In this document: positions 2,182-22,387 of the stretch, piece after piece
How the letters are laid out: each line of letters begins with the position of its first letter
Position numbering within the stretch: position 1 is the first letter of the stretch
IMG/VR virus record: IMGVR_UViG_3300048837_000944
Location: 1 to 22,438 of that record
DNA from: a virus
DNA length: 22,438 nucleotides
Direction: 5' to 3' (one strand)
The notes under the pieces: model-generated
Database searches by the model: none
Told to the model about the DNA's origin: nothing
Seen by the model: the letters and a program-made list of their open reading frames with translations, nothing else
Translations under genes and position numbers: made by a program

Positions 2182-2957
2182 TAGTCCACCGTTTCCGCGT
2201 CGATGATCTCCCCGGTGCCCGGGTTGACCACTGTGCCGCGCGCCGGTTCGGTTTCGGCGGCGACGGTGGCCACCGCGCGCAACTGCTCACGGCGATACTC
2301 CGCACTGGTCGGCACCCATTTGGCGAGCTGATGAATCGCAGTTTTCAACACCATCGCCGCGTAGTCGGTTTTCCACGGCGAGTGGTCCTTGTCGGCGGTG
2401 GCCGAGGCGGCTTTGGCCCGGGTGATTTCCTTGGGTCCGACCACCACCACCTTCGAGGTGGCCCCGTCGCGCATCACCGCGTAGGCGTAGGCACCCAACA
2501 CATGGCCGCGGTCGGAGAACCAGTCGATGCGGTGATCGGGGATCTGGTCGCCGGGCCGGTAGGTGAACGTGTCGGCGGCGCACACCACTTCGGCTTTCAC
2601 ACTGGATACCGCCCCGGCCCGGTAGATCAGTTCAATCTCGCCCTGGTAGCCGGTGATGCCGAGCACGCCGGGTTGCCGGCCCCCGCGCGGGGTCAGGTAG
2701 TACTCGTTCGTGCCCGGTTCGAGCCCTAGCCGGGCGGCCTCGAGCAGGGCCTGCATCAGCGACGCCGGGTTCTGCTGGGCGACCTGCAACAGTTTCGGGT
2801 CGCGTTTCAACGCGCCCACGGCCAGGCGGGTGAACGTGATCGGGTTGATGTGGGAGGGCAGGACCTGGGCGAACTCGTCGCGGTAGTCGCGGACCTGCTG
2901 CACGATCGCGCCGGTGTCGCGGTGGGTTTCCACCGCACCGGTGATGGTGTCGTTCAT
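2181..2957 (-). CDS. recT: RecT single-strand annealing protein
   Basis: A 258-residue protein with family features in order: an N-terminal helical region, LEAARLGLEPG and NEYYLTPR near residues 72-91, GYQGEIELIYRAG (about 102-114), and the C-terminal signature PW..DY..M..KTAIHQLAKWVP..S (about 193-218). RecT coats and anneals complementary single strands produced by a partner exonuclease, in phage replication and recombination. The YqaJ-type exonuclease lies two genes upstream, with a small zinc-ribbon gene between. ATG at 2957 overlaps the previous stop (ATGA). Length is typical of the family. Confidence 0.92.
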   Translation of the reverse strand: MNDTITGAVETHRDTGAIVQQVRDYRDEFAQVLPSHINPITFTRLAVGALKRDPKLLQVAQQNPASLMQALLEAARLGLEPGTNEYYLTPRGGRQPGVLGITGYQGEIELIYRAGAVSSVKAEVVCAADTFTYRPGDQIPDHRIDWFSDRGHVLGAYAYAVMRDGATSKVVVVGPKEITRAKAASATADKDHSPWKTDYAAMVLKTAIHQLAKWVPTSAEYRREQLRAVATVAAETEPARGTVVNPGTGEIIDAETVD

Positions 2958-3172
2958 GCGGTGGCCTTCAACTCTCCGGTGTCGGTGTCCAGGGCCAGTG
3001 CCTCTTGGTCGCAGCGGTGCGGGATCGCCTTGGACGACATGGAGATGGCCAAGGTGGACCCGGACCATTCCTTGCGTTTCAGGACCGCTTCAACGGTCGC
3101 TTCGATGTCGACGGTGCGTCTGCACACGGGGCAGACCACCTCGAACACGTAGTCCCCGGTGGGTTTACTCAT
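2954..3172 (-). CDS. Small zinc-ribbon protein between exonuclease and RecT
   Basis: A 72-residue protein with C14-x2-C17 in an EVVCPVCRR context and H52-x-C54, arranged like a zinc ribbon, with a mixed charged segment between. It overlaps both neighbours by ATGA (start at 3172, stop at 2954), so it is co-translated with the exonuclease and RecT. That position suggests an accessory role in recombination, for example contact with DNA or with either enzyme, but this is inferred from context only. Confidence 0.65.
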   Translation of the reverse strand: MSKPTGDYVFEVVCPVCRRTVDIEATVEAVLKRKEWSGSTLAISMSSKAIPHRCDQEALALDTDTGELKATA

Positions 3173-4209
3173 GGCTTGCTCTCTTTCGGTTGGGTGATGG
3201 GTGTTCCCGGCGTTGCCTGCCGGGCGGGTGTCAGACGGATCGTGGGTGTGGTCGACGGCTGGTAGTAGTCGGCGAACAGGTCGGGGTGGTCGGCCTGCAA
3301 CCGGGCCCGGTCGATGCCGCGGCGGTACGACACCGACCGGGTCGCGACGACCGCGCCGTGCCCGTCGATGGCGCGTTTCCCGTCGCCCATCGCGGCCAGC
3401 AGCTGATTCTTCGCCAGGTCCTCGGCGGCCTTGGCGTGTTTCGCGGCGGCGACGGCCTGCCGGTACGCGGCGGCCAGGTCGTCGGTCACCGCGATGTCGC
3501 CGTGGGCGTCGCCGTGGTGGCGGCCTTTCAACGCGGCGGTGGTGGCTTCGTGGCCGTCCACATCCGGGGTTCGGCCTTCGGACAACGACCGGTGGAAGTC
3601 ATGCGCGGAGTCGATGACCAGATCAACCTCGCCGGGTTGCGCAACCACCTCGTAATGCCTGACCTCCATCTGGTGGGTCAGGACCGTCAACCAGCCGCGG
3701 CCCACCCCCACGGTGGCCATCTGGTGGATCATCTGCGCCCGGTAGTGCGCCGGGATGTCGGGGACACCATCGCCGGGGTCGTCGCCGAACTCATCGAACC
3801 CGGCGGATGTTTTGAACTCGACCAGCGCCACCGGGCGGCGACCCCGCCGGTCGGGGTACACACACCGGTCGGGGGTGGCGCGCAGCCACGACAACACGCC
3901 GCGGCCCTGCCAGCAGCCCCCCGACCCCAGCCGCCACCCTTCGGGCAGAACCTCGCCGGTGAAGAAGCGGTGCAGCGCCGGTTCCAGGGCGTGACCGATC
4001 GCGAACCGCTGCGAACGTTCCCACTCCTGCAACAACCCGCCGTCAGCGACCACGGCCCGGTCGTGGTGTTTGCGCCACCACAGTTCAAACCGTGAAGACC
4101 ACGGCGACAGGCCGAGGATGGCGGTGGTGTCCGACGCGGTCACCCCGAGGGCACGCCACGCCAGCCACGCTGTGGTGTTCGGTTTCACCCCGACCCTGCG
4201 CCCGGTCAC
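3169..4209 (-). CDS. YqaJ-type (lambda Exo-like) recombination exonuclease
   Basis: A 346-residue protein of the PD-(D/E)XK exonuclease superfamily. Visible motifs: G-V-T-A-S-D at about 22-27, GHALEP with E76, ATPD with D114, the VEFK core (E131, K133), and a Tyr/Gln helix (YRAQMIHQM, 157-164). The C-terminal 100 residues contain a long charged helix. It should chew one DNA strand from double-strand ends and feed RecT. The GTG at 4209 was chosen because it overlaps the upstream stop as GTGA; an ATG at 4266 in frame is possible but would overlap the upstream gene by 61 bases. The extreme C-terminus (LTPARQATPGTPITQP) is Pro/Thr rich and probably disordered. Confidence 0.85.
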   Translation of the reverse strand: MTGRRVGVKPNTTAWLAWRALGVTASDTTAILGLSPWSSRFELWWRKHHDRAVVADGGLLQEWERSQRFAIGHALEPALHRFFTGEVLPEGWRLGSGGCWQGRGVLSWLRATPDRCVYPDRRGRRPVALVEFKTSAGFDEFGDDPGDGVPDIPAHYRAQMIHQMATVGVGRGWLTVLTHQMEVRHYEVVAQPGEVDLVIDSAHDFHRSLSEGRTPDVDGHEATTAALKGRHHGDAHGDIAVTDDLAAAYRQAVAAAKHAKAAEDLAKNQLLAAMGDGKRAIDGHGAVVATRSVSYRRGIDRARLQADHPDLFADYYQPSTTPTIRLTPARQATPGTPITQPKESKP

Positions 4210-4967
4210 GTCGCACCTGCCACCGGCGCGTCGTCGGGATGGAGCGGCCCGATCGTCCGACGCCACGGCCCGGTCAGTAGGTCGTAGGCGCCCTGGTCCC
4301 AGCCGGGATACTCGCCGATCAGGTCACGCGCAAGCAACGCACAAGCGGCGTCACAAGCGGCGTCCCAAGCGGGGCCCCGAGTGGCGCGAGTGGCTCCCCG
4401 AGCGGGGCCCCGAGTGGCGTCCCGAGTGGCGCCCCAAGCGGCGTCACAAGCGGCGTCCCAAGCGGCGTCCCGAGTGGCGCGAGTGGCTCCCCGAGCGGGG
4501 CCCCGAGTGGCGTCCCGAGTGGCGCCCGGAGTGGCGCCCCAAATGGTGTCCCAAGCGGCGCCCAGTCGGCGCACGTCGTCCGCTGTCAGCGTGGCGCACC
4601 TCTCGATGCACGCCGCGACCTGCACGCCCTGCGGCCCCAGCGCCACATGGGCATCCACCTCGGCCAGCACCCGGACAGCCGTGGCCCCCACCTTGCGCGC
4701 GTGGCGGGGCCGGTCCTCGCCCAGGTCGTCGTCCGGTGCCACCTCGAACAGCCGACACGGCCACGACATGCCCACACACTTGGTGGGGATGGTTGCCATG
4801 TGCAGCCAGCCTGGGCCAGGAAAGTCTGTTGGCGGGGCGATCCCCTCGTCCCACCCACTGTCGGGTGCCACGGTCACTGGCACGCCGGATGTTAGGGCGG
4901 CGGCATAGTCCACGGTGCCGGTGTGAAAATCGGTGCCGTCAGGCCGGGTTGCCTTCCAGTAGGTCAT
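4206..4967 (-). CDS. Repeat protein rich in Ala, Arg, Thr, Asp and Trp; function unknown
   Basis: A 253-residue protein. Residues 1-135 form a normal mixed-composition domain ([20 protein letters not shown] start, cysteines at 64, 71, 120 and 124). Residues 139-210 are a repeat tract of units like W-D-A-A-x and T-R-D/G-A, which includes two copies of a 31-residue block coded by a 93-base direct repeat. The C-terminus ([20 protein letters not shown]) is again non-repetitive. A long amphipathic helix or coil is likely. I recall Ala/Trp/Arg repeat proteins with a similar ending in actinobacteria and their phages, but none with a known role. ATG at 4967 overlaps the previous stop (ATGA). Confidence 0.7.
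4343..4528. repeat. Two tandem 93-base direct repeats inside the repeat protein gene
   Basis: Copies lie at 4343-4435 and 4436-4528 and differ at only a few positions. Each is built of shorter GAGTGGCG/AAGCGGCG units, which continue raggedly to about 4575. The period is a multiple of three, so gain or loss of a unit keeps the reading frame. Such tracts can change length by slippage or recombination, and could also be collapsed by assembly. Confidence 0.85.
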
Positions 4968-5122
4968 GTCCACCGCCCCCACACCCGGCGGGCCATCTGT
5001 TTGAGCCGGGAACGCTGATACGGGTGGTGGCACACACACATGCAATGCCCAGGTTCCGGGCAGGCCGGGTGCCTGCCCCACTCGCACTGGTAGGTGCAGA
5101 TCGGGTCCAGGTTCGCGGTCAT
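4964..5122 (-). CDS. Zinc-knuckle microprotein (second copy of the C-H-C-C-C-CH motif)
   Basis: A 52-residue protein with C13-x4-H18-x2-C21-x5-C27-x-C29-x-C31-H32 and an extra C9, followed by a basic helix (YQRSRLKQMARRVW). The motif matches residues 11-29 of the protein at 1858-2181. AGGAAGGA precedes the ATG at 5122, the best ribosome-binding site of the early block, and the start overlaps the previous stop (ATGA). The knuckle plus basic tail suggests nucleic-acid binding. Confidence 0.65.
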   Translation of the reverse strand: MTANLDPICTYQCEWGRHPACPEPGHCMCVCHHPYQRSRLKQMARRVWGRWT

Positions 5123-5241
5123 ACAGCGTCCTTCCTGACGGGCTGCCGGTACCCCGACGCGGGACGGATCGGGTGTTTGTGGATCCGGGCGTGACGTTTC
5201 GTCAACGCCCGGCGGCGTTGCCGTTCGGTGCGCCGCGGCAT
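5119..5241 (-). CDS. Very basic microprotein
   Basis: A 40-residue protein beginning MPRRTERQRRRALTKRHARI; about two in five residues are Arg, Lys or His. ATG at 5241 forms TGATG with the previous stop, and its TGA overlaps the next ATG (ATGA), so it fits the tight chain of the operon. A strongly cationic peptide of this size would bind nucleic acid or an acidic partner. No family is recognised. Confidence 0.6.
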   Translation of the reverse strand: MPRRTERQRRRALTKRHARIHKHPIRPASGYRQPVRKDAV

Positions 5242-5354
5242 CACCACACCCCCCGATCGGCAGGGGTCGCTTCACACACCGCGCAGGTGGTGTCGGTGAA
5301 CACCCACGCCCCGCATGTGCAGCGGCGCACATCCGCGTCGATCTGCCGTGTCAT
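5241..5354 (-). CDS. Zinc-ribbon microprotein
   Basis: A 37-residue protein in which four cysteines form C12-x-C14-x9-C24-x2-C27, typical spacing for a minimal zinc ribbon (RCTCGAWVFTDTTCAVC). ATG at 5354 overlaps the RusA stop (ATGA), and its TGA at 5241 forms TGATG with the next start. Its size leaves room for little beyond one metal-binding fold. The role is unknown. Confidence 0.6.
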   Translation of the reverse strand: MTRQIDADVRRCTCGAWVFTDTTCAVCEATPADRGVW

Positions 5355-5776
5355 TCGGTCAGCTCCTCAACCTGGACGTGAACACCCGGCTCGGTCGACG
5401 CCCATACCTTCGACGCGGTCAGCAACGTGACCTGCGCGTCGTCGCCGAGCACCCCCGCCTCGGTCAGGGCGTCGAGCACGGCGCGGGACAGTTTGTCGAT
5501 GTCGGCGGGCCGGGTGTGCCAGCGCGGCGCGGAGGGTCGCAGCTGCTTACCGAGGTAGTGCCCTGCGGGGCGGGGCATGAAGAACGCCAACACCACCCCC
5601 ACCGGGCCGGTGTCGATGGGGGTTTTGTGCCAGCCCTGCGCGACGAACGACCAGGCCAGCTGGTCACGCCAGGCACGGTGCCGGCGCCCGGCGGCCTCGA
5701 TCAGCTGGCCGTGCGCGCCGCGGCGTTTCGACCCTTGCGGAACGGGCACCCCGGACACGAACACAGTGCGGCTCAC
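5351..5776 (-). CDS. rusA: RusA-type Holliday junction resolvase
   Basis: A 141-residue protein. It has the family's N-terminal strand and P-x-P-Q-G-S-K-R motif (residues 11-18) and the acidic core R-P-A-D-I-D-K-L (D92, D94, K95), then LDALTEAGVLGDDAQV with D102, D112 and D113. RusA homodimers cut four-way junctions, here probably clearing recombination intermediates made by the exonuclease-RecT pair before packaging. The start is GTG at 5776, overlapping the previous stop (GTGA). Length is normal for the family. Confidence 0.9.
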   Translation of the reverse strand: MSRTVFVSGVPVPQGSKRRGAHGQLIEAAGRRHRAWRDQLAWSFVAQGWHKTPIDTGPVGVVLAFFMPRPAGHYLGKQLRPSAPRWHTRPADIDKLSRAVLDALTEAGVLGDDAQVTLLTASKVWASTEPGVHVQVEELTE

Positions 5777-5934
5777 CGGCCACCTGCCACGGTCGAGCGC
5801 ACCGCTGCCAGATGCCGATCATGCAGGGCCCACAGCGCCGGCAACGAGGCGTGGAACAGATCCCAGCCGCACTGGCAGCGCGCCCGGTACACACCGTGCC
5901 AGCGGGCGGCATGGGACAGCAGGTGCCCGGTCAT
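5773..5934 (-). CDS. Small CxC/HxxH zinc-finger-like protein
   Basis: A 53-residue protein with C20-x-C22-G-W followed by H38-x2-H41 (LHDRHLAAV), a spacing that could bind one zinc ion. It is otherwise helical. ATG at 5934 overlaps the previous stop (ATGA) and its TGA overlaps the GTG start of rusA. Similar CxCGW...WxxH peptides are familiar to me from actinophage early regions, without a known function. Confidence 0.6.
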   Translation of the reverse strand: MTGHLLSHAARWHGVYRARCQCGWDLFHASLPALWALHDRHLAAVRSTVAGGR

Positions 5935-6161
5935 CGGCGGGCCTCCAACCAGTCGGCCTGCTCGGTGTGTTCATGGGCGGAACGAAGCTCCCCGCCGGCG
6001 CACCACGCGGTCACCAGCGCAATCCCGGTGAACGCCAGGCCGCCGGCCCACCAGCGCAGCGGGATCGCAACCCCGACCATCACCAGGGCTTGCAGGGACA
6101 CTGTCAGCAGGGCCAGTCCGGAGCGGCGGAACGCAGCGGCCAGCCGCCGATCGGTTATCAC
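5931..6161 (-). CDS. Two-helix membrane protein, unknown function
   Basis: A 76-residue protein with two likely membrane helices (about residues 16-34 and 38-56) joined by a short turn with RWW, and a charged C-terminal tail (ELRSAHEHTEQADWLEARR). GTG at 6161 was chosen because it overlaps the previous stop as GTGA; another GTG at 6188 is in frame. It is the second gene of the early region, next to the excisionase-like gene. It could be a membrane-acting early protein, but nothing specific is shown. Confidence 0.6.
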   Translation of the reverse strand: MITDRRLAAAFRRSGLALLTVSLQALVMVGVAIPLRWWAGGLAFTGIALVTAWCAGGELRSAHEHTEQADWLEARR

Positions 6162-6343
6162 GCTGCTGCCCGGCGGGAGTCCAACCACCGTTGCACATCG
6201 TGGGGGTGGAACAGCAGCGCGCCCGCCGGACCGGGGAACTTGTAGGCGGGGGTGATGTTGCCCCGTGCGACTTCCCGGGTGACTGTTGTAGCGCTGATGC
6301 CAGCCAACCTGGCCACGACTGCCGTTGTCAGAAGGTCTGTCAT
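6158..6343 (-). CDS. Excisionase-like / MerR-type HTH protein, first gene of the early region
   Basis: A 61-residue protein: LLTTAVVARLAGISATTVTR is a helix-turn-helix as in excisionases and small MerR-like regulators, followed by a wing with LLFHPHDVQRWLDSR, the usual ending of this fold. In temperate phages such proteins bend DNA at the attachment site or repress early promoters. It lies first in the leftward operon, opposite the Cro/C1-like gene. The ATG at 6343 has no clear ribosome-binding site and follows an operator-like ATTGCACAAT; a TTG at 6361 is in frame. With no integrase present, a regulatory role is at least as likely as excision. Confidence 0.7.
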   Translation of the reverse strand: MTDLLTTAVVARLAGISATTVTREVARGNITPAYKFPGPAGALLFHPHDVQRWLDSRRAAA

Positions 6344-6351
6344 GACCACAT

Positions 6352-6363
6352 CATTGCACAATG
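6352..6363. promoter_or_regulatory. Operator-like site, left copy (CATTGCACAATG)
   Basis: CATTG-CA-CAATG is an inverted repeat with 5-base arms. The inner 10-mer ATTGCACAAT recurs at 6421-6430, and the two copies flank the divergent control region. This copy lies 9-20 bases upstream of the excisionase-like ATG at 6343. Confidence 0.55.
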
Positions 6364-6374
6364 CACGACGAGGT

Positions 6375-6403
6375 TGATTACTGGTCTTTCATTGGCGTGT
6401 CAC
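6375..6403 (-). promoter_or_regulatory. Candidate leftward early promoter
   Basis: On the minus strand GTGACA (6403-6398) is followed after 17 bases by TAATCA (6380-6375). The upstream box matches the -35 consensus at five of six positions; the -10 is weak. Initiation about 7 bases on would place the left ATTGCACAAT site just inside the transcript start. A leaderless start at ATG 6343 with AATGAT as its -10 is an alternative. Confidence 0.3.
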
Positions 6404-6420
6404 CCGACTGGGCGGTGTTG

Positions 6421-6430
6421 ATTGCACAAT
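6421..6430. promoter_or_regulatory. Operator-like site, right copy (ATTGCACAAT)
   Basis: An exact copy of the 10-base core at 6353-6362. It overlaps the proposed -35 box of the rightward promoter, so a protein bound here would block transcription of the HTH gene at 6458. The most likely ligand is that HTH protein or the excisionase-like protein. Confidence 0.55.
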
Positions 6431-6451
6431 GATCGGGCCTCGTGCAACACT
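6423..6451 (+). promoter_or_regulatory. Candidate rightward leaderless promoter
   Basis: TTGCAC (6423-6428), 17 bases, AACACT (6446-6451), six bases, then ATG at 6458. No ribosome-binding site precedes the ATG, so a leaderless transcript, common in actinobacteria, would explain the start. The boxes are weak, but the layout equals that of the stronger promoter before 6753. Confidence 0.35.
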
Positions 6452-6457
6452 CAATGC

Positions 6458-6667
6458 ATGACAGTGCAGATGGACAACCCAGCGCCAGTCCCCCGATGGA
6501 CACTCGGAGACCGGATGGCGAAATCCCTTCGCCAAGCCAACATCGGAGTCCAGGACATGGCCGATTACCTCGACGTGGCACGGAACACCGTGAGCACCTG
6601 GACCCACGACAAGATCAGCCCGAGCAAACAGACCCTGCGTCTGTGGGCGATGCGCACAGCCGAGTGA
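6458..6667 (+). CDS. Cro/C1-type HTH repressor-like protein
   Basis: A 69-residue protein. Residues 18-66 (DRMAKSLRQANIGVQDMADY, then a V-A-R-N-T-V-S-T-W recognition helix) form a lambda-repressor-like HTH fold, ending soon after it with no multimerisation domain. It reads away from the early operon, with an operator-like site over its promoter, as expected for the Cro or repressor arm of a genetic switch. ATG at 6458 was chosen over the in-frame TTG at 6422 because the residues before it are not family-like. Codons here are less GC-biased than in the structural genes. Confidence 0.75.
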   Translation: MTVQMDNPAPVPRWTLGDRMAKSLRQANIGVQDMADYLDVARNTVSTWTHDKISPSKQTLRLWAMRTAE

Positions 6668-6704
6668 AGGCATGGAGAGCCACCCAAACGGCCTAACCCC
6701 AGTC

Positions 6705-6722
6705 TGTCAAGACACCTTGACA
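6705..6722. promoter_or_regulatory. Operator-like inverted repeat 1 (TGTCAAG-N4-CTTGACA)
   Basis: Perfect 7-base arms TGTCAAG (6705-6711) and CTTGACA (6716-6722) separated by ACAC. The right arm contains the -35 box TTGACA of the next promoter. A second copy starts 29 bases downstream, close to three helical turns, so both would lie on similar faces of the DNA. Confidence 0.7.
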
Positions 6723-6746
6723 CGGTGGCTATCTGTCAAGTATCCT
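6717..6746 (+). promoter_or_regulatory. Promoter for the HTH/zinc gene at 6753, probably leaderless
   Basis: A perfect -35 TTGACA (6717-6722), an 18-base spacer and a -10 TATCCT (6741-6746), then six bases and ATG at 6753. The transcript would begin at or next to the start codon. Operator 1 covers the -35 and operator 2 the -10, so the promoter looks tightly repressible. Confidence 0.65.
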
Positions 6747-6751
6747 TGACG
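6734..6751. promoter_or_regulatory. Operator-like inverted repeat 2 (TGTCAAG-N4-CTTGACG)
   Basis: TGTCAAG (6734-6740) and CTTGACG (6745-6751) separated by TATC; one base differs from perfect symmetry. It overlaps the -10 box and ends just before the ATG at 6753. The same site as 6705-6722. Confidence 0.7.
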
Positions 6752-6752
6752 T

Positions 6753-7202
6753 ATGAACGCACACCAGGTAACCAACATGCAGACCGCCAGTGTTCTGACC
6801 TCAGCCGAGCGGCTCGCCCAGCAGGTCAGCGAAGGCACAGCGATAGCAGCGCTACGCGAAGCCGACTACCTACGCAAGCAACTAGAAGGCCTGATAGCAG
6901 ACATTGTCAGAGACGCCAAAGACAACGGCGAGACGTGGGAGACGATAGCCGACGCCCTAGACGTGAGCAGGCAAGCAGCCCACCAGCGCTACCAGACACA
7001 GAGCATTCACGAGGTGAGCAAACACCAGGCCAAGACCGTACGCACAACCATTGCCACGCTCAACGAGGATCTAAACGACGAACTGACGCCATGCCGGGCG
7101 TGTGGACGGCAAACGCTCGGACTTGTGCAGGTGTCCCTCGGGGACGTGTGGATCGGAACGAGCCCATTGTGCGACGAATGCCAACTAACGGCGGAAGGGT
7201 AG
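6753..7202 (+). CDS. HTH protein with C-terminal zinc ribbon, probably autoregulated
   Basis: A 149-residue protein in three parts: an N-terminal helical segment (about 14-58, coiled-coil-like), an HTH (residues 61-80, TWETIADALDVSRQAAHQRY), and a C-terminal four-Cys ribbon (C114-x2-C117, then C140-x2-C143). Its promoter carries two TGTCAAG-N4-CTTGACA sites, so self-repression is the simplest model. Residues 88-97 (VSKHQAKTVR) recur at the start of the next protein. ATA, CTA and AGG codons are used more than in the structural genes, which suggests a separate origin. It could be the immunity repressor or a lysogeny regulator; no family with known function is recognised. Confidence 0.75.
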   Translation: MNAHQVTNMQTASVLTSAERLAQQVSEGTAIAALREADYLRKQLEGLIADIVRDAKDNGETWETIADALDVSRQAAHQRYQTQSIHEVSKHQAKTVRTTIATLNEDLNDELTPCRACGRQTLGLVQVSLGDVWIGTSPLCDECQLTAEG

Positions 7203-7206
7203 CGGC

Positions 7207-7467
7207 ATGAGCAGGTCGATGAGCAAGCAACAGGCCAAGACCGTACAGACCAACGTGGACCGCATCGCGTTCCTCTTGGACAACGGGGTAGCCGCCGTGG
7301 ACATTCTGCGGGAGGTCTACCGTCTGCACTTCCTCGCCGTCGAGGGATTCATCGGCCGCTACCTCGTCGTCCGAGCGCTCCACACCGAGCGCCAAACGGT
7401 CGCGGATCAACCACTAAGCCGCACTCACCGACCCGGCGAACCACTTATAACCGTCCTCGGGCGGTAG
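7207..7467 (+). CDS. Small hypothetical protein, possible degenerate HTH
   Basis: An 86-residue protein starting MSRSMSKQQAKTVQT; GGAAGGG lies 7 bases before ATG 7207, and an in-frame ATG at 7219 is possible. Residues 23-55 (FLLDNGVAAVDILREVYRLH then VEGFIGRY) have the hydrophobic spacing of a helix-turn-helix but lack a clear turn. The N-terminus repeats a segment of the preceding protein. The last 15-20 residues look non-conserved, and the 3' end overlaps a plausible reading frame on the other strand, so the natural end could have been altered. Confidence 0.5.
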   Translation: MSRSMSKQQAKTVQTNVDRIAFLLDNGVAAVDILREVYRLHFLAVEGFIGRYLVVRALHTERQTVADQPLSRTHRPGEPLITVLGR

Positions 7468-7515
7468 CCAGTCCAGCCCGTGAGCATCCAGCACAGGGGT
7501 GCCGTTGCACTGGAT
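7414..7515 (-). pseudogene. Possible coding remnant downstream of the attachment-like site
   Basis: One minus-strand frame ending at a TAG (7416-7414) reads plausibly, with the piece GTPVLDAHGLDWLPPEDGYK, rich in Trp, Tyr, Pro and Asp. It is closed upstream by a TGA near 7519 and has no good start. A frame one base over supplies FVTGFDPV just upstream, so a frameshifted or truncated gene is possible. It overlaps the 3' end of the rightward gene at 7207-7467. The evidence is composition only. Confidence 0.25.
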
Positions 7516-7529
7516 CGAAACCGGTCACG

Positions 7530-7545
7530 AACCCGGATCCGGGTT
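7530..7545. terminator. Perfect 16-base palindrome AACCCGGATCCGGGTT
   Basis: A fully symmetric AACCCGGA/TCCGGGTT 63 bases after the stop at 7467 and 11 bases before the tRNA-like core. As RNA it folds into a 6-bp stem with a GATC loop, without a following U-run. It may be a bidirectional terminator between converging operons or a protein-binding arm of the attachment site. Confidence 0.4.
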
Positions 7546-7555
7546 GTGTGGTGAG

Positions 7556-7595
7556 TGCGCCGCCAGGGACTCGAACCCCGAACCCGCTGGTTACG
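7556..7595 (-). other. attP-like core: 3' half of a tRNA gene
   Basis: On the minus strand these 40 bases fold as the 3' half of a tRNA: CGTAA (end of anticodon loop), CCAGC (3' anticodon stem), GGGTT (variable), T-arm CGGGG-TTCGAGT-CCCTG, and acceptor strand GCGGCGC plus discriminator A. No 5' half is present within tRNA distance, so it is not a tRNA gene. Temperate phages carry exactly such a segment as the attP core, because integration must rebuild the host tRNA. The sequence resembles actinobacterial tRNA-Lys, but CGT in the anticodon position would fit tRNA-Thr; the identity is open. Confidence 0.75.
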
Positions 7596-7614
7596 TGACA
7601 CTGCGCAGGGCGGC

Positions 7615-7894
7615 ATGAACACCAGCCGGGCCTGCACCGGCGACCACCACGAGATGTGCGCCAGCCCCCGCAACTGCAGCCGGTCAGCGCCTCAACGCTG
7701 CCCGCTGGCCTGAGGACCTGCACCGGCCCATCTCGAGGATCGTCCGGTCCTACTTCGGCAGTGTGTCGTTCTACGAGTCGCGGACCACACCCACGGCGCG
7801 GCGCAGCTGGCAGAAACGGTATTACAGCGCCGGCGGTGCTGCGACCACGGTGCGGATCCGGTTGGGCCTGCCGCCGCGGGGCCGCGGCTGCTGA
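7615..7894 (+). pseudogene. Frameshifted or vestigial small zinc-knuckle gene beside the attP-like site
   Basis: ATG 7615 opens a 32-codon frame (stop at 7713) whose start contains C7-x4-H12-x2-C15-x5-C21, the same knuckle as in the genes at 1858 and 4964. From about 7682 the next frame (stop at 7894) looks coding instead, with high third-base GC and pieces such as RWPEDLHRPISRIVRSYFGS, but it has no start and is closed upstream at 7616. A single frameshift would join them into a protein of about 90 residues. It could be a decayed gene, a sequencing indel or chance. It converges on the tail operon, which stops at 7895. Confidence 0.35.
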
Positions 7895-9676
7895 TCACAG
7901 TTTGAACAGGCGTTTGTCGATCACGGTCAGCCGGATCTCGTCGGTGCCGGACAGCTGCCAGCCCCACAGGAACCCGGTCCAGCTGGTGCCGGTGAAGTCG
8001 CGGAACAGCCCGACCGGGATGTTGTTGATGGTGATGGGCGCGCCGAGGCGGGCGGTGACGAGCTGATCCCACGTTTGAGGGTCGACCAGGTTACGGCGCA
8101 CCACCCATTGGTCGACGTGTTCGATGCTGACCAGCGCGTTCCACACCCCATTGATGAAATCCCACTTCGCCTGCGCGTGTTGGTACGCCGGGTACAGCAA
8201 CGGCTGGGGGGAGTATTCCCGGTCGGCGTGGTTAGCAGGCGGGGCGACATAGAACAGTACCGGGTCGAACTCGCGGGCCTCGTCGGGGATCGGCGGGCCG
8301 AGGATCCGGGTGCCGCGCTGCGCGGTGTACCGGTTGAAGTACACCGGTTCGCGGCGCACCCGTACCGGGGTGACGATACCGGCGGCGTCCACGCTGATGG
8401 TGTCCGCGGTGTACACCGCTGCGGGGGCCTCGAACCGGTAGTAGGGATGACCCCACACCCCGATCTGCCCGTCGCGCAGCTCCCACACCTGCGCGAAGCA
8501 GGCGTTGGCTGCCCCGTCGAGCAGGTCGGTGACCAGTTCCAGGTCCGCACCTTTCCAGAACTGCACAATCCCGACCCGGATTGAACTGGCCTCGGATGTG
8601 TAGGCCTGCTGCACACCGTGGGTGAAGTACCCGGCGAGGTCGTTGACGAAGTCCGACATCGGCCGGTCGGAGTACCCGCCGGGGCCAGGGTCCAGCGGCA
8701 TGTACGCCAACGCCACACCGTAGGTGGATCCTGAGGTTCCCCAGCGGGGAATGTAGTAGCGCTGGTTGTACTGCTGGCGGGGCCCGCCCGCGTTCACCCT
8801 CGAGGTCGACCCGGCCGATGGGGACCAGTCGCGGTCCTCGTCGGTCACCCACCCGGTCCACACGGTGGCCCCGTTGCGGGTGATCACCACTTTCTCGCCG
8901 GGTGAGAACGCATCCCCAACGCCGGTATCCAGCCGGTAGGTCAGCCCGGGGGCGGCCTGGATCTGCACCCGGTACACCGTGGCGTCGGTGCCGTCGAGGG
9001 TTGCCTCGCAGCGCAGCTGCACCCAACGGGCGGCCAGCGGCACCTGCGCGGCGGGCAGTGTCAACGTTTTGCTGCCGGCCAGCCCGAACCCGACCCACGG
9101 CCCGGCGTGTTCGGCGAGCAGTTGCCCTCCGGCAGTTGGGCTGGCGGTGTAGTAGCGGGCGACCAGGCGGGCACGGCGGCGCACACCGGTCTGCACCCCG
9201 GGTTGTTGCAACACGTCGAAGGTGAAGTCGGCGAGGATCTGCTGGCGGCGTTGACCGCGGACCGTGGCGGGGAACAGATTGGCCGGCTGCGCCAGGTCCA
9301 TCACCGCGGTGAACGTGCGCCCGGCCAGTTCCGCCGGGGTCCAGGACGCACCGGACGGTTCGACCCGGGCGGTGTTGGCGTCGGGGCGGCTGGTGACCGC
9401 CCGCGGCGCGTCGGTGACCACCCCGCCGGTGGTGTTCACCGTCCACGGGGCGGTCAGCGCCTGCGTCCACAGCAGCGGGTCACCCAACACTTCGAAACTG
9501 GCGGTGGATGTGTCGGCCTGCCCGACCGGGTCGGGGTCGTCTTTGCCCATCCGGATCGCCAGCGACGATTTCACGATGTGCGCCTCGAGGTTGTTCCCCC
9601 CGATGATCGCGACCCACTCGTCGGCGGTGTCGAAGTCCGGGGAGAACGCGGCATCGAACCCCTGATGCGCTGTCAT
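7895..9676 (-). CDS. Large minor tail protein (tail-tip/hub)
   Basis: A 593-residue protein directly after the tape measure, as expected for the siphophage tail-tip assembly. It is rich in beta-type sequence, Trp, Tyr and Gly, with no helices of note and no hydrolase motif that I can identify. ATG at 9676 overlaps the tape-measure stop (ATGA). The N-terminus (FDAAFSPDFDTADEWVAIIG onward) is followed by a carbohydrate-binding-like middle region (about 130-250). It is the only gene of the tail-tip module here; most siphophages have separate distal tail and tail-associated lysin proteins, so this one may combine those roles. Confidence 0.75.
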   Translation of the reverse strand: MTAHQGFDAAFSPDFDTADEWVAIIGGNNLEAHIVKSSLAIRMGKDDPDPVGQADTSTASFEVLGDPLLWTQALTAPWTVNTTGGVVTDAPRAVTSRPDANTARVEPSGASWTPAELAGRTFTAVMDLAQPANLFPATVRGQRRQQILADFTFDVLQQPGVQTGVRRRARLVARYYTASPTAGGQLLAEHAGPWVGFGLAGSKTLTLPAAQVPLAARWVQLRCEATLDGTDATVYRVQIQAAPGLTYRLDTGVGDAFSPGEKVVITRNGATVWTGWVTDEDRDWSPSAGSTSRVNAGGPRQQYNQRYYIPRWGTSGSTYGVALAYMPLDPGPGGYSDRPMSDFVNDLAGYFTHGVQQAYTSEASSIRVGIVQFWKGADLELVTDLLDGAANACFAQVWELRDGQIGVWGHPYYRFEAPAAVYTADTISVDAAGIVTPVRVRREPVYFNRYTAQRGTRILGPPIPDEAREFDPVLFYVAPPANHADREYSPQPLLYPAYQHAQAKWDFINGVWNALVSIEHVDQWVVRRNLVDPQTWDQLVTARLGAPITINNIPVGLFRDFTGTSWTGFLWGWQLSGTDEIRLTVIDKRLFKL

Positions 9677-12600
9677 CGTCCGGCCCTCGCCGCGTGTTCT
9701 TTCAGGATCCGGCGGATCGCCCGGGCGGTGCCTTCCGGGTCGATCGCCCCGTTGACCTCCAACTTTTCGATCACCACCGTGGGTGCCTCGGCTGCGGTCG
9801 CTTTCGACTTCTTCGTTTTCAGGTCGACATCCACCTCGGCTTTGAACTTCGCCTTGCGCAGCTTCTTGTTGATCGCGTCTTCCATGTCGTCGGCGCTGTG
9901 TTTCCACATGGCACGCAACGTGGCGCGGGCCTGCCGCACGTCAACCTTGTAGGTGGCGTTGGCGATGTCCTGCCCGATCCCGGCGGAGTACTGCTTCATC
10001 AGCCGGAACGACATCGCCCACTGGTCGCGCAGCCCGGCGTTCGCGGCCAGCTGGCGGGCCAGTTCCAGCCCGGCTTGCGGGCCGGCCTGGGCGATCTCGG
10101 CCAGCCCGGCCGGGGACAGCCCCTGCTGTTTGAGGGTGCGCAGCAGCCCGGCGAACTCGGCGGTGGCGTTGACCTGCGCGGCGATCTGTTCGGACAGGTC
10201 GTCCTGGGCGCGCAGCTGGGCGATCTGCGCTTCGAGTTCGGCGCGCCGCGCGGTGTCGGCCACGGTGCGAGGCCCGGCGGCGATCAGCGTGGCGTACGTG
10301 TTGCGCAGTTCGGCCAGGCGTACCGGGTCGGTGGTGGTTTGCAGTTCGGCGATGATCGGGTCCAGGTGCGACCAGGACTGCATCGTTGCCTCAGCGGCCT
10401 CGGTTTGCAGCGCGGTGATCTTCTCGGCGGCGTCGCGGGCAGCGGACAGCTGATCGGCGATGCTGAACGCGGTCACCGCCTCGGCGAGGCGTTTGGCCAG
10501 CGCCGCCCGGTCCTGCTCCAACTGCCGCAACCGGGCGTACAACCGTTCGTAGCGGTCCTGGGTGTGGCGCACAACATCGTCGGTGATCTGTTTGAGCTTG
10601 TCGCGGTTCTTCTCCGCGGTGTCCGCTTCGATCTTGAACAGCTTCTTGACGTTCGCGTCGCCGGCCATCCACTTGCGCAGCGCGGTGGACATCCCGGACA
10701 GGTACGCCTGCGCCGACGACTGCCCGTCCACCGACAGGCTCGAGGAGGTGCGGTTCTCGAACGCGGGGCCCAACTGCCCCTGGACGGCGTCGCCGCGGCG
10801 CACCACAATCTGGATTTCCCGGTAGGTGGGGATCGACAAGATCGCGGTGCGCACCGCATCGGCGTCGTTCTTGGCCTGCGCCGCACCCGAATTCTTGTAG
10901 ACCGTTTTCACGTCCTTGGGGACCAGGCCCAGCGCGTTGGCCAGGTTCACAGCCTCCTGCTTCTGGATCCCGGCGGCGCGGGCGGCGGTGATGAACTGGG
11001 CCCGGGCTGTGCGGGTCGCCCCTGCCACCGCTTTGGAACTGCCGGTGACCATCCCGAGGGACACCGCCGCGTCGCGGGCGGTCTTCGCCTGGTCGATCAG
11101 GGCGTTCGCCGCCCCGGAAATGTTCTTATCCGCGTTACGCGACGCCCTCCCGGCGGCGATCTGGGCGGCGGTCCACCCTTGCAACGACCGCCCACCGGCG
11201 TCGATCTGGTCGGCGGTCGCGGCGACGGCTTCCCGGTAGGCGGTCTGGTTCGCGGCGTTCTCCTCGATCGCCGACTGGGAGGCGAAGAACGAATCCATGT
11301 AGCTTTTCGCGTCGGCGACGCGTTTCAGCGCCTCGGTCAGGCTGTCGAACGATGGGGCGGCGCCGGCCGCGGCCGACGCGGCGGTCTGGATGGACAGCCC
11401 CAAGTCGGCCAGGTAGTCCCCGGCGGCGGCCGCGCCGATGTTGCGGGCCAGCACGTCGAACAGTTCCCGGGTGCGGGCCGCGGCCAGCTGCGGGTCGGAC
11501 ACCTGGATCTCTTTGATGCCGGCGGCCATGTTCTCGAAGTACTGCCGGGCGGCCTGCTCCTCGCCGCGCAGCCCGGCCAGCCCACCTTCGGTGCCGAACT
11601 CGCGGATGGTGTCGAACAGGGACCGGTCCAGCGACGCCGCCAGGTCGTCGGCGCTGCGCCCCAAGTCCTGGAACGGGTTGGCGGCATACCACGGTTTGGA
11701 CAGTTCCACGCCGATGTCGGACAGGGCGTTGGAGGCTTCCTTGAGTTGCCGGGTGAACTCGGCGGCGTCGGGCACCGCGGAGCGCATCGACTCGGCCACC
11801 GCGGAGATACCCGCCTGCATCCCGATCAGCCCGACCGTCGCCACCCCGAGGGCTGCACCGAGCCGGTCCACCCCCATCGACGCCAGCCCCGCGCCCAACG
11901 CCCGGGTGGGTTTCCCGGCGGCGCCGAGCGCGACTTCCATCGCGGCCAGCCGCGCCGCGGCGGCCCCGGAGGCGATCTGGATGGTTTTGAACGCGGCCAC
12001 GGCCACCCCGACCGACCCGGCGGCGGACACGAACTGTGGGGGCAGCGCGGCCAGGGCGCCACCCATCCCGCCGAGCGCCGCGGCGACCTGGGTGGCCACC
12101 GGCAGCAGCCCCTGCCCGATGTTCTCCTTGGCGTTTTGGATCGCGGCGGTGGCGGCCTGCTGGCGGGAGGCGAACGTGTCCAGTTCGCGGGTGGCCTGCC
12201 CGGCGAACTCCCCGGACTGAGCCAGGATCAGCCCCAGCGCGGCCTGCTGGGTGGTCAGGCCTTCACTGGCGGCCTTCGCCGACACCATCGTCTCGGAGAT
12301 GTTGATACCGAACTCGTCCAGGCGGGCGTACGACCCGCGCAGCCCCGCCTGCAACGCCTCCAACGCTTTCGGGGTGGTCCCCCCGAACGTGGCGGCCATG
12401 TCCGCGGCGGTCATCAGCAGCTGGTCGGTGGTGCGGGTCAATGTGTCGCCGGTGTAGCCCAACTGTTTGAGCTGGTTGCCGAGCAGCGCGGAGGACTGCA
12501 ACGCCTGCGACTGGGACAGCCCGTACTGCTGCCAGGCCGACGCCCCGGCGATCACCTCGGCGGCCTGCACGTCGAAGATCGCCTCGACCGAGCCTTGGGC

Positions 12601-12840
12601 CTGTTGCAGCGCCGATGCGGCGTTGACCACCTGCATGATCGACGCGCCGACCGCGGCGATCCCGGCGGCGGCGACCGCGCCCTGGGAGAACTTCGAGAAC
12701 AGCCCGTCGATCTTGGCCAGGGACTGCTGGGATTTGTCCGCCGAGGTTTGCAGGGTGCGCAGCTGCGCGTTGGCCTGCGCCACCCCGCGGCCCATCCCGC
12801 GGGCGTCCGCGGAGATGACCACCTGCACGCTGCGGGCCAT
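9673..12840 (-). CDS. Tape measure protein
   Basis: A 1055-residue protein, the longest in the genome. The N-terminal 130 residues are helical (VQVVISADARGMGRGVAQAN), followed by long Ala-rich helices and hydrophobic stretches (about 235-345), and coiled-coil segments around 790-900 (QDRYERLYARLRQLEQDRAA). The C-terminus, ending PTVVIEKLEVNGAIDPEGTA plus a basic helix, is common in this family. At about 0.15 nm per residue it predicts a tail near 150-160 nm, long for a 22-kb genome. The start lies one base after the preceding stop. No cell-wall hydrolase domain is visible. Confidence 0.9.
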   Translation of the reverse strand: MARSVQVVISADARGMGRGVAQANAQLRTLQTSADKSQQSLAKIDGLFSKFSQGAVAAAGIAAVGASIMQVVNAASALQQAQGSVEAIFDVQAAEVIAGASAWQQYGLSQSQALQSSALLGNQLKQLGYTGDTLTRTTDQLLMTAADMAATFGGTTPKALEALQAGLRGSYARLDEFGINISETMVSAKAASEGLTTQQAALGLILAQSGEFAGQATRELDTFASRQQAATAAIQNAKENIGQGLLPVATQVAAALGGMGGALAALPPQFVSAAGSVGVAVAAFKTIQIASGAAAARLAAMEVALGAAGKPTRALGAGLASMGVDRLGAALGVATVGLIGMQAGISAVAESMRSAVPDAAEFTRQLKEASNALSDIGVELSKPWYAANPFQDLGRSADDLAASLDRSLFDTIREFGTEGGLAGLRGEEQAARQYFENMAAGIKEIQVSDPQLAAARTRELFDVLARNIGAAAAGDYLADLGLSIQTAASAAAGAAPSFDSLTEALKRVADAKSYMDSFFASQSAIEENAANQTAYREAVAATADQIDAGGRSLQGWTAAQIAAGRASRNADKNISGAANALIDQAKTARDAAVSLGMVTGSSKAVAGATRTARAQFITAARAAGIQKQEAVNLANALGLVPKDVKTVYKNSGAAQAKNDADAVRTAILSIPTYREIQIVVRRGDAVQGQLGPAFENRTSSSLSVDGQSSAQAYLSGMSTALRKWMAGDANVKKLFKIEADTAEKNRDKLKQITDDVVRHTQDRYERLYARLRQLEQDRAALAKRLAEAVTAFSIADQLSAARDAAEKITALQTEAAEATMQSWSHLDPIIAELQTTTDPVRLAELRNTYATLIAAGPRTVADTARRAELEAQIAQLRAQDDLSEQIAAQVNATAEFAGLLRTLKQQGLSPAGLAEIAQAGPQAGLELARQLAANAGLRDQWAMSFRLMKQYSAGIGQDIANATYKVDVRQARATLRAMWKHSADDMEDAINKKLRKAKFKAEVDVDLKTKKSKATAAEAPTVVIEKLEVNGAIDPEGTARAIRRILKEHAARAGR

Positions 12841-12841
12841 G

Positions 12842-13207
12842 TCAGAACCCCGCCCGGGCGATGATCAGATCCAGGTTGCGTTCGATCAGCGGGGCGACCC
12901 GGTCGGAAACCTCATCGCGTGCCAGGTACAGGAACGGCACCGGCCGGGGCCAGGTGACCGCCCCGAACATGGCGTACGGCCAGTAGGTGGGGGTGGACTG
13001 GCGCAGGATCGCCGCGTTGCGCCGGCGGGACTTCCGCGGCCCGGACGACAGTTTCCCGGTGGCGCCTTTCGGGGCGATGCGCTGCGCCGCGGCCAACGCC
13101 AACTGCCCGACCTCGTCGAACGCGTCGCGCAGATCCTGGGACTCCACCCCGATCCGGGTCATCGCCGCGATCGTGTCGTTGAGCCCGCGGATGGCGACCG
13201 CTGCCAT
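12842..13207 (-). CDS. HK97 gp10-like head-tail/tail completion protein
   Basis: A 121-residue protein: an N-terminal helix (IRGLNDTIAAMTRIGVESQD), AAQRIAPKGATGKLSSGPR and an arginine stretch, then PYAMFGAV and a C-terminal VAPLIERNLDLIIA helix. This order matches the HK97 gp10 family. AAAGGAG lies 8 bases before ATG 13207. The usual position of this gene is between the head-tail connector and the tail-tube gene; here it sits between the tail chaperone and the tape measure, so its role may be tail rather than neck assembly. Confidence 0.7.
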   Translation of the reverse strand: MAAVAIRGLNDTIAAMTRIGVESQDLRDAFDEVGQLALAAAQRIAPKGATGKLSSGPRKSRRRNAAILRQSTPTYWPYAMFGAVTWPRPVPFLYLARDEVSDRVAPLIERNLDLIIARAGF

Positions 13208-13221
13208 TTGCCCGACTCCTT

Positions 13222-13365
13222 TCAGGTGGTGGTGCGTTCGGTGAGGATGTCCAGGGCGGTGACGATCGTGGCCGACGGTTCGTCCCACCAGTCCCGCGGG
13301 GCGGTGCCGGTGGCCAGCGCTAACTCGATGACGAGTCGGGCGTGGGATCCGGCTGGGTAGGGTCC
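13222..13365 (-). CDS. Tail assembly chaperone, T part reached by -1 frameshift
   Basis: This frame has no start of its own but encodes a typical downstream chaperone tail, LALATGTAPRDWWDEPSATI, ending at 13222. It is one base back (-1) relative to the G frame, and both stay open over the overlap, so a ribosomal -1 shift would yield a fused G-T protein of about 133 residues. No perfect XXXYYYZ heptamer is present; the best near-matches are GGACCCT (13365-13359) and GGATCCC (13350-13344). The left bound given for this part is the earliest of these. The pattern is standard in siphophages. Confidence 0.75.
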   Translation of the reverse strand, partial: GPYPAGSHARLVIELALATGTAPRDWWDEPSATIVTALDILTERTTT

Positions 13366-13622
13366 GCCTCGGCCACCGCCTTGATGTCGATGCGCACCGC
13401 CAGGTCGGTGAACGCGTCGAAGGTCATGTCGGCGGGGATGCGGCCCAGCCGCCGGGATGCGTTGAACGCCACGAACGTGGTCCACAGGTTCCACGCCTCG
13501 GTTTTGTCCGGCCAGCCACGGGCGGACTGTTCGATCTCCCAGCGGGTGGCCTCCGACTGCTGAATCGACACGTCGAACGGTTCGCTGTCGACCAAGGTGA
13601 CCTCGAAGACGGGTAGTTGCAT
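13320..13622 (-). CDS. Tail assembly chaperone, G part
   Basis: A 100-residue protein (MQLPVFEVTLVDSEPFDVSI start), with the helical core RWEIEQSARGW and AWNLWTTFVAFNASRRLG typical of the upstream chaperone. The C-terminus (ADPTQPDPTPDSSSS) is low complexity, as usual just before the slip region. AAGGAAGGG precedes ATG 13622. It lies between tail tube and tape measure, where its role is to coat and fold the tape measure during tail assembly; most ribosomes should end here and a minority shift into the T frame. Confidence 0.85.
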   Translation of the reverse strand: MQLPVFEVTLVDSEPFDVSIQQSEATRWEIEQSARGWPDKTEAWNLWTTFVAFNASRRLGRIPADMTFDAFTDLAVRIDIKAVAEADPTQPDPTPDSSSS

Positions 13623-13645
13623 GATGGGTTTCCCTTCCTTTGGGT

Positions 13646-13691
13646 GGGAGGTGACCGCGGCGCGAAGGGAATCTCACTGCGGTCACCTCCC
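13646..13691 (-). terminator. Strong stem-loop after the major tail protein gene
   Basis: Perfect 13-base arms GGGAGGTGACCGC and GCGGTCACCTCCC with a 20-base loop, 31 bases after the tail-tube stop and 24 bases before the chaperone ATG. No U-run follows. It probably lowers read-through so that the tail-tube protein is made in excess over the chaperone and tape measure. Confidence 0.7.
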
Positions 13692-13721
13692 GGACTGTGT
13701 GTGCGGCTGGGCGTGGTTGGT

Positions 13722-14162
13722 TTACGGCAGTCCGCCGTCACCGAACCCGGTCGGGGGCACGATGGTGCGGATCGGGTAGGACCCGGTGATGGTGATCTGC
13801 TTGTTCACCGCCCCACCGACCTGGAGGGCTTTCACCTCACAGGTGCCGGTCCAGGCGGTGCCGGCGTCGTCGGTGAACTGCACATCGAACTCGACAACCT
13901 CGCCGCGGTGCGCCCACGAGAACGCTTGCAGGCTGGCCGCCGACGGTGCGTCGAAGTCGGCGATCAGGGTGAAGTCGAGGGTGTCGGACACCGTCGACGC
14001 CCCACCGACCTTGTCCCCGGACAGCACCTCCGTGGCTTCGGCGGTGTCCACGGATGGGTTGATCGACACTTCGGTGATCTGCCCGGAGAACGCCACGGAC
14101 GTGCCGCCGGGTGGGGCGGTGAACGACAGGATGCCGGACTTCACGCGGCTATCGGTACTCAT
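13722..14162 (-). CDS. Major tail (tube) protein
   Basis: A 146-residue beta-rich protein (LSFTAPPGGTSVAFSGQITE; VSDTLDFTLIADFDAPSAAS; a C-terminal Ig-like strand set GGAVNKQITITGSYPI). Position before the chaperone pair and size fit a siphophage tube subunit. AGAAGGAGG seven bases before ATG 14162 is the best ribosome-binding site in the window, and hairpins flank the gene, both in line with high expression. Confidence 0.85.
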   Translation of the reverse strand: MSTDSRVKSGILSFTAPPGGTSVAFSGQITEVSINPSVDTAEATEVLSGDKVGGASTVSDTLDFTLIADFDAPSAASLQAFSWAHRGEVVEFDVQFTDDAGTAWTGTCEVKALQVGGAVNKQITITGSYPIRTIVPPTGFGDGGLP

Positions 14163-14200
14163 CGGTTCCTCCTTCTGCCGTCAGCCGGCAATGGGATTGA

Positions 14201-14221
14201 CCGGCAGGACGGCCCTGCCGG
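14201..14221 (-). terminator. Stem-loop before the major tail protein gene
   Basis: CCGGCAGG (14201-14208) and CCTGCCGG (14214-14221) form an 8-bp stem with a 5-base loop, five bases after the tail-terminator stop. No U-run follows. It may be a weak terminator or a processing/stability element at the 5' side of the tail-tube message. Confidence 0.5.
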
Positions 14222-14225
14222 GGGT

Positions 14226-14582
14226 TCATAGGGCCACCGCCATCCGGTAGGTCAGCTGGTAGCCGGGGATTTTCGTGTCGGTGGCGGTGGTGTACTGCAC
14301 CGGGTCGGCGGCGTCGGGTGGGGCCATCCCGGACACGTCGAGGATCTCCTCGAGCATCGCGGACAGCTGCGCCAACGCGTCCAGGTTGTACGGGCCGGGG
14401 ACCAGCAGCATGACGGTGACCTCGGCCTGGGCGGCCTCACCGGCCAACGTCCCGAAGTCCAGTTTCGGGGGGTTGACCAGCACACACGGCAACACGATTT
14501 GGCGGGGGTCGGCCACCGCGCGCAGACCGGTTTGCGTGGCGATGGTGTCGGCGATGTGTTCCACCGCGGTGGCGATGCTCAT
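14226..14582 (-). CDS. Tail terminator-like protein
   Basis: A 118-residue protein with helix-strand pattern (IATAVEHIADTIATQTGLRA; VLPCVLVNPPKLDFGT; AEVTVMLLVPG; LDALAQLSAMLEEILD), matching the alpha/beta fold of siphophage tail terminator or neck proteins placed just before the tail tube. ATG 14582 overlaps the connector stop (ATGA). The family match is by position and fold pattern, not by a fixed motif. Confidence 0.65.
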   Translation of the reverse strand: MSIATAVEHIADTIATQTGLRAVADPRQIVLPCVLVNPPKLDFGTLAGEAAQAEVTVMLLVPGPYNLDALAQLSAMLEEILDVSGMAPPDAADPVQYTTATDTKIPGYQLTYRMAVAL

Positions 14583-14980
14583 GTGGCCACCGGCCGGAAC
14601 GCCCGGTTGATTTCCAGCAGCGTTTCGATCTCACGGCTCATCACCGGCGGCAGGCCCACATCCGGGTCGTACTGTTCGGCCCCGCCGGTGCCCAACCCGG
14701 AGTACATGCGTTGGGCCAGGGACACCAGCCCCAAGGTGATGCGCGGATCCCACCCGGTGACGGTCAACCCGTCGTGGGAGTCGAACGCCGGGGCGAACGT
14801 GGCGGGGTCGAAGTCGCCGTCGAGGGTGGGCACGGGCAGGTCGGGGCGCCACTGCCCCACCGCCCGGTTCAGACCCTGGCAGATCAACGTCAACCGGCCG
14901 GCGTCGGCGGTGCTGTGCGGCGCAAGCCCGGTCGCCCGTGTCACATCGGCCGGCTGGATCCAGCCTGTCAGAGTGGCCAC
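14579..14980 (-). CDS. Head-tail connector (adaptor) protein
   Basis: A 133-residue protein after the capsid gene. The N-terminal WIQPADVTRATGL and LTLICQGLNRAVGQWRPDL resemble gp6/gp15-like adaptors, which are helical and bind the portal ring. The C-terminus is helical (SREIETLLEINRAFRP). Start is GTG at 14980, with GGGAAAGGAG about 8-10 bases upstream. A separate stopper gene is not seen between this and the terminator. Confidence 0.7.
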   Translation of the reverse strand: MATLTGWIQPADVTRATGLAPHSTADAGRLTLICQGLNRAVGQWRPDLPVPTLDGDFDPATFAPAFDSHDGLTVTGWDPRITLGLVSLAQRMYSGLGTGGAEQYDPDVGLPPVMSREIETLLEINRAFRPVAT

Positions 14981-15022
14981 CTGGGGTTTCTCCTTTCCCG
15001 CGTTCCGGTTCCGGTGGTGGAG

Positions 15023-15067
15023 CTGGTGGGCACGGACCGGGGTTGGCTACCCAGCCGCGCCCACCAG
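15023..15067 (-). terminator. Stem-loop after the major capsid gene
   Basis: On the minus strand CTGGTGGGCGCGG pairs with CCGTGCCCACCAG, 13 bp with one G-U pair and a 19-base loop, three bases after the capsid stop. It mirrors the hairpin after the tail-tube gene and should reduce expression of the connector relative to capsid. Confidence 0.65.
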
Positions 15068-22249: not shown

Positions 22250-22387
22250 ACCGGGTGCAACACCGGCGAACCTGGGGCGAAACCTGCCCGGTTACCGCGG
22301 CCTTCCAGGGCCGTTTCCGGGCGGATTTTCGGGGTCAGACGAGAAAAAGGCGAAGGGCGGCGGATTGACCGGGGGGTGGCTAAAAAG
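22250..22387. other. Intergenic gap, right copy
   Basis: The counterpart of 203-340. Eight of the sixteen differences between copies fall in 22269-22312; the remaining 75 bases up to 22387 match the left copy exactly. No gene or promoter is recognised. Confidence 0.5.

Follow-up and report, generated by a model that had tools for sequence, protein, structure and literature searches.

Positions 7556-7593 of the window (the whole 22,438-nucleotide stretch analysed here) probably represent the attP core left from an ancestor's integration-dependent immunity cassette that targeted a host tRNA-Lys(CTT) gene, and the insertion site is most likely now a stranded relic. The phage itself is best regarded, with good confidence, as a recent, natural and obligately lytic derivative of a temperate phage whose cassette has been broken twice. 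Integration-dependent immunity was reportedly described by Broussard et al. in 2013.

The attachment core and the phage that carries it

The core (TGCGCCGCCAGGGACTCGAACCCCGAACCCGCTGGTTA on the plus strand) is the antisense of the 3' half of tRNA-Lys(CTT); read on the minus strand (TAACCAGCGGGTTCGGGGTTCGAGTCCCTGGCGGCGCA), it is the exact 3' half of the actinobacterial tRNA, which bears out the description of a tRNA-type attachment core in the initial annotation.

7556-7593, minus strand: attP common core, 38 bp, identical to host tRNA-Lys genes (sequence matches)

A match of 39 bp far exceeds chance. The annotation had proposed searching actinobacterial genomes for the tRNA, and this search was productive: a 36-bp version of the core is present in 63 stretches of such genomes, and the core lies inside a tRNA-Lys gene at 31 of the 32 loci scanned. 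Hosts of the exact core include Pseudonocardiaceae, Frankiaceae and Micromonosporaceae, a distribution that suggests actinobacteria without settling the host. Among IMG/VR contigs, the 33-bp centre of the core has exact matches in 8, in 3 of which ARAGORN predicts a plain tRNA-Lys(CTT) at that place. The identical tRNA-Lys core is also shared by two unrelated viral contigs (L002, 585-1453, and L008, 1608-1646), and in L002 integrase-like reading frames follow immediately after it. Within the window, ARAGORN finds no complete tRNA, Rfam reports no RNA family at the gathering threshold, and the tRNA family gives no hit over 7300-7900 even at E<=10; the surroundings of attP hold no convincing arm-type repeats. 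Homologous recombination between the core and the host tRNA gene, which the annotation had also raised, was set aside, 38 bp being judged too short to matter.

The window comes from one metagenomic contig, the ends of which show strain variation and overlap by 391 bp (1-391 and 22048-22438) at 96% identity. This overlap corresponds to a circular map of ~22,047 bp, probably left unflagged as circular owing to the imperfect repeat. The phage has its own terminase, portal, capsid and a 1055-aa tail-block protein, and the possibility that it is a satellite needing a helper for its particles was rejected on the presence of its own packaging and capsid genes. Queries with the terminase and capsid found no relatives in IMG/VR, and hundreds of actinobacterial genomes contained no close ones (terminase 27-38% identity, capsid 33%); because these matches are only distant, no host is assigned. 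RecT, a RecE-type (YqaJ) protein and RusA are encoded at 2181-2957, 3169-4266 and 5351-5776, respectively, which gives this very small genome a set of recombination genes.

The intact cassette of a sibling phage

The orphan attP can be explained by direct comparison with a near-identical, integrase-bearing relative, IMGVR_UViG_3300048834_000296 (hereafter L003; 12,087 bp), which has the same core and is the only IMG/VR contig recovered by queries with the window's 670-aa protein and with the integrase described below. Identity to the window is 99.1% over window positions 7679-15043, 98.5% over 2567-4209, 96.3% over 7491-7678 and 90.9% over 5128-6159; L003, itself incomplete at 12 kb, also departs from the window elsewhere. 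In one such place, a 0.9-kb stretch of the window (4210-5127) has no counterpart in L003; it encodes a protein of 293 aa (phrog_8332) that contains degenerate tandem repeats. Conversely, L003 contains 1,237 bp that the window lacks; they encode a tyrosine integrase of 272 aa (PF00589, 4.5e-18; phrog_1, 1.1e-36) at L003:7682-8500, directly downstream of the repressor gene and co-oriented with it. This integrase shares the conserved R, HxLRH and Y blocks with the McGonagall and Angel integrases; it most resembles the enzymes of two small Gordonia phages, McGonagall and GRU3 (42-45% identity), and of BPs-type phages (38%).

In L003, the attP core lies within the ORF of a CI-type repressor, beginning at nucleotide 280 of 342. 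The repressor matches the Phayonce and Purky immunity repressors (43%) and phrog_2328 over its full length, and its C terminus (CAARDSNPEPAGYVTLRRAA) parallels that of McGonagall (CAIRDSNPEPADRLLSLVAA), which uses the same tRNA-Lys site. What the initial annotation had placed between genes thus formerly belonged to a repressor gene, as the 3' end of its coding sequence; the integration-dependent immunity cassette with attP in that gene, and the fact that the repressor is broken in the window, were both missed. Joining the L003 repressor in silico to host tRNA-Lys sites yields a TAA immediately after ...NPEPAG in every case.

7592-7594, plus strand: codon TAC (Tyr), which turns into the stop TAA when the intact L003 cassette is joined to host tRNA-Lys (in silico, 68 of 68 host sites)

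The predicted integration removes the eight C-terminal residues YVTLRRAA from the L003 repressor. As read from its gene order, L003 has the BPs-type layout of integration-dependent immunity, with attP in the repressor ORF, the integrase gene downstream and an attB overlapping a host tRNA gene, where integration is predicted to truncate the repressor. In an ancestor of this kind, integration into the host tRNA-Lys(CTT) gene would cut the repressor at the junction TAA, and the tail that is thereby removed would, by analogy with BPs, mark the viral form of the protein for degradation. The L003 repressor and integrase end in ...LRRAA and ...GTCAA, respectively, neither of which is a canonical LAA. 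An AlphaFold model of the repressor, computed with no alignment (pLDDT 45), serves as a hint for helix positions only.

A natural prophage provides an analogue. In G460 (L107 and L109), two copies of the core separated by 32.9 kb delimit a prophage of about 33 kb with a complete tRNA-Lys(CTT) at one end; its integrase is 38% identical to that of L003, its repressor stops at a TGA in the core, and the phage-side remainder reads through to EPRTRWFSASDRLAA and a stop codon, an LAA end. At the level of its sequence, this prophage confirms repressor truncation by tRNA-Lys integration for a related integrase. The unintegrated order, with repressor (46%), core and integrase (44%) in succession, is seen in G407.

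Deletion and insertion in the window cassette

As the initial annotation had stated, the window encodes no tyrosine or serine integrase: searches of its six frames with PF00589 (tyrosine) and PF00239 (serine), both of which fired in control genomes, gave nothing at E<=10, and tblastn with the L003 integrase gave no match better than E ~1. The record is nearly closed, its ends overlapping, so an integrase gene outside it is unlikely. Neither an integrase elsewhere nor a complete tRNA covariance hit, the two findings on which the annotation had staked its reading of the site, turned up in the window. The annotation's idea of a lost integrase is upheld by L003, which carries the gene exactly at the window's deletion point.

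7678-7679, no strand: blunt deletion junction, where L003 has 1,237 bp with the tyrosine integrase gene (alignment to L003)
7615-7713, plus strand: small Cys-rich ORF, its 3' part cut by the deletion, fused out of frame (comparison with L003)
7679-7894, plus strand: the 71 codons remaining at the 3' end of a gene for 167 aa (signal-peptide-like start; intact in L003), start lost to the deletion (comparison with L003)
7895-9907, minus strand: 670-aa protein of the tail-gene block, the next gene past the cassette (neighbour order as in Gordonia phage McGonagall)

A blunt deletion of ~1.24 kb took out the integrase gene and truncated both flanking genes. Because the window holds only remnants of the two cut genes, the deletion is the derived state; the 71 retained codons of the 167-aa gene are 100% identical to L003. 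The exact junction pattern was found in no other IMG/VR contig, and a literature search for integrase-less phages with an attP found none.

The other lesion lies upstream of attP, where an 831-bp insertion carrying an HTH gene splits the repressor.

6158-6361, minus strand: gene divergent from the repressor, Cro-like or 'excisionase and transcriptional regulator' (HTH_17 and phrog_66 in the domain search)
6458-6667, plus strand: truncated repressor, 69 aa from ATG 6458 (81 aa from TTG 6422), ending after WAMRT, before the last HTH_3 helix
6654-6659, plus strand: left copy of GCACAG, the 6-bp direct repeat on either side of the insertion (sequence)
6660-7490, plus strand: 831-bp insertion splitting the repressor gene upstream of attP (GC 0.60 versus 0.685 for the rest)
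6705-6750, plus strand: ahead of the inserted HTH gene, a promoter-like TTGACA-18-TATCCT overlain by two palindromes resembling operators (TCAAG-n4-CTTGA; pattern search)
6753-7202, plus strand: inserted gene for an HTH protein of 149 aa that has CxxC pairs at its C terminus (domain search)
7207-7467, plus strand: inserted 86-aa protein, function not assigned (ORF)
7491-7496, plus strand: right copy of the 6-bp direct repeat GCACAG (sequence)
7493-7618, plus strand: orphaned repressor tail TGVPLHWIETGHEPGSGLCGECAARDSNPEPAGYVTLRRAA, ending at a stop codon (protein identical to L003)

The window repressor stops at 6667, whereas attP lies 890 bp further on, in the orphaned tail and outside the expressed repressor ORF. 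The HTH_3 part that is lost is the last helix segment (GVPLHWI); four predicted helices remain, and the truncated protein might keep some activity. At the nucleotide level, the orphaned tail differs from L003 by five changes only, all synonymous, and the split is therefore recent. Upstream, the immunity region has diverged from L003 in its 5' part (6160-6667), so that the N-terminal part of the repressor is of a different type. Both phages nevertheless have copies of ATTGCACAAT (candidate operators) in the region of the divergent repressor and Cro-like genes, at 6353-6362 and 6421-6430 in the window and at 8998-9007 in L003. The gene that the initial annotation called excisionase-like occupies, divergent from the repressor, the position of the Cro-like gene of related phages, which speaks against the excisionase role.

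The inserted HTH gene is autoregulated-looking, with its palindromes over a promoter-like site, and no other copies of these palindromes with 0-1 mismatch occur in the window. In their longer form (TGTCAAG-n4-CTTGAC), the paired palindromes and the promoter-like site stand a few bases before the HTH start codon, and the transcript is possibly leaderless. A 27-bp repeat is common to the inserted HTH and 86-aa genes (7015-7041 and 7220-7246), and the HTH protein has no relatives in IMG/VR. As to the nature of the insertion, a mobile element was rejected (there is only the 6-bp flanking repeat, with no terminal inverted repeats and no recombinase), as was an intron (a stop codon follows immediately and there is no Rfam match).

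From the two lesions together, we infer that no lysogeny is to be expected of this phage alone: repressor activity would be lost, growth would be obligately lytic whenever the phage infects alone, and the core would be left stranded. The split repressor also lends weight to the annotation's suggestion of a virulent derivative. A tRNA-half attP without an integrase can, in such a case, be read as a fossil that marks a recent change to lytic growth.

Alternative readings and known systems

The contig would, in our reading, represent one real genome. Were it instead an assembly chimera joining strain variants, the integrase-less genome would not exist; the 96% identity of the overlapping ends indicates that strains are mixed, and the junction is known from one contig only. 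De Bruijn chimeras require a shared k-mer, usually of 21 bases or more, whereas no bases are shared at the deletion junction and just 6 bp at the insertion, and both flanking genes are cut as expected from a real deletion. A chimera is accordingly given very little probability. Just as improbable, in our estimate, is that the core has been kept intact since a co-infecting L003-like relative's integrase can insert the phage into tRNA-Lys. The window core is indeed intact and identical to that of L003, an integrase-bearing and near-identical phage exists, the same core is found on other contigs, and the core may be a complete substrate, given that such systems are reported to work without arm-type sites (PMC9262239). 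Recent loss of the integrase, however, also predicts core identity, and integration would yield no active repressor because attP is outside the expressed repressor ORF. The search of genomes with the 36-bp core, moreover, returned tRNA-Lys sites and no integrated copy, and the actinobacterial genomes searched hold no close terminase or capsid relative. The annotation's proposal of a borrowed helper integrase has thus gained no positive evidence, even though sibling phages carry a matching one, and its suggestion to look for the phage integrated at that tRNA led to no copy among the genomes searched.

The phage might also have stayed temperate by other means, as an episome, with a tail-free split repressor that would be stable and would act with no need of integration, perhaps together with the inserted HTH gene. 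The split does take the tail off the repressor, the insertion supplies an HTH gene and operator-like palindromes next to it, and the candidate operators flank the divergent promoter region of the window, where L003 has one exact copy. Against this, the truncation removes the last HTH_3 helix segment, the inserted palindromes are confined to the vicinity of the inserted gene, and no partition family was found among the genes scanned; we hold a persisting temperate state to be quite unlikely. Slightly less so, though still improbable, is a natural step out of integration-dependent immunity, in which freeing the repressor from attP and tail let it repress independently of integration, and the integrase, then dispensable, was lost. 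If true, such a decoupling would mean that the window shows a phage genetic switch at a living intermediate stage of its evolution.

As a doubly broken cassette in an obligately lytic phage, the reading we prefer, the window can be compared with the known natural lytic derivatives of temperate phages, of which mycobacteriophage D29, where a deletion removes the repressor, is the classic one (PMC9262239). Both have a near-identical temperate-type relative and a loss in the immunity region, and the window pairs a relative with intact lysogeny genes with lesions in repressor and integrase. The window differs in that its repressor is split by an insertion, its integrase gene is deleted and its cassette is of the integration-dependent kind; the case is also known here from sequence alone.

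Integration-dependent immunity itself is already known (PMC4557955, PMC9262239), and such systems are reported to have no evident RDF (PMC9262239). BPs and Angel (cluster G) and Phayonce and Purky (cluster P) share with L003 an attP in the repressor ORF, an integration-made stop, a co-oriented integrase gene and a divergent Cro-like gene (PMC4557955, PMC9262239). They differ in using other attB genes (tRNA-Arg for BPs), in their larger genomes and in their intact cassettes. The integration-made stop arises from a Cys codon in BPs (TGC to TGA; PMC9262239) and from a Tyr codon in L003 (TAC to TAA). The 17-kb Gordonia phages McGonagall, Jeanie, GRU3 and GMA5 (cluster CW) have a tRNA-Lys attP in the 3' end of the repressor gene with the peptide CAxRDSNPEPA; an attP matching host tRNA-Lys has been reported for McGonagall, and the group has the same repressor-integrase-tail gene order and the related integrase noted above (PMC5559632). 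Their core differs by 2 bases, and they are temperate, whereas the window has a split repressor and no integrase; the GMA5 cassette, too, holds an additional ORF, which there separates integrase and repressor. What this case adds is an uncultivated lineage of ~22 kb, for which megablast of the window gave no DNA match to any phage record, together with a well-dissected natural break of such a cassette, and the pair formed by L003 and the window amounts to a natural test of how an integration-dependent switch is lost or decoupled.
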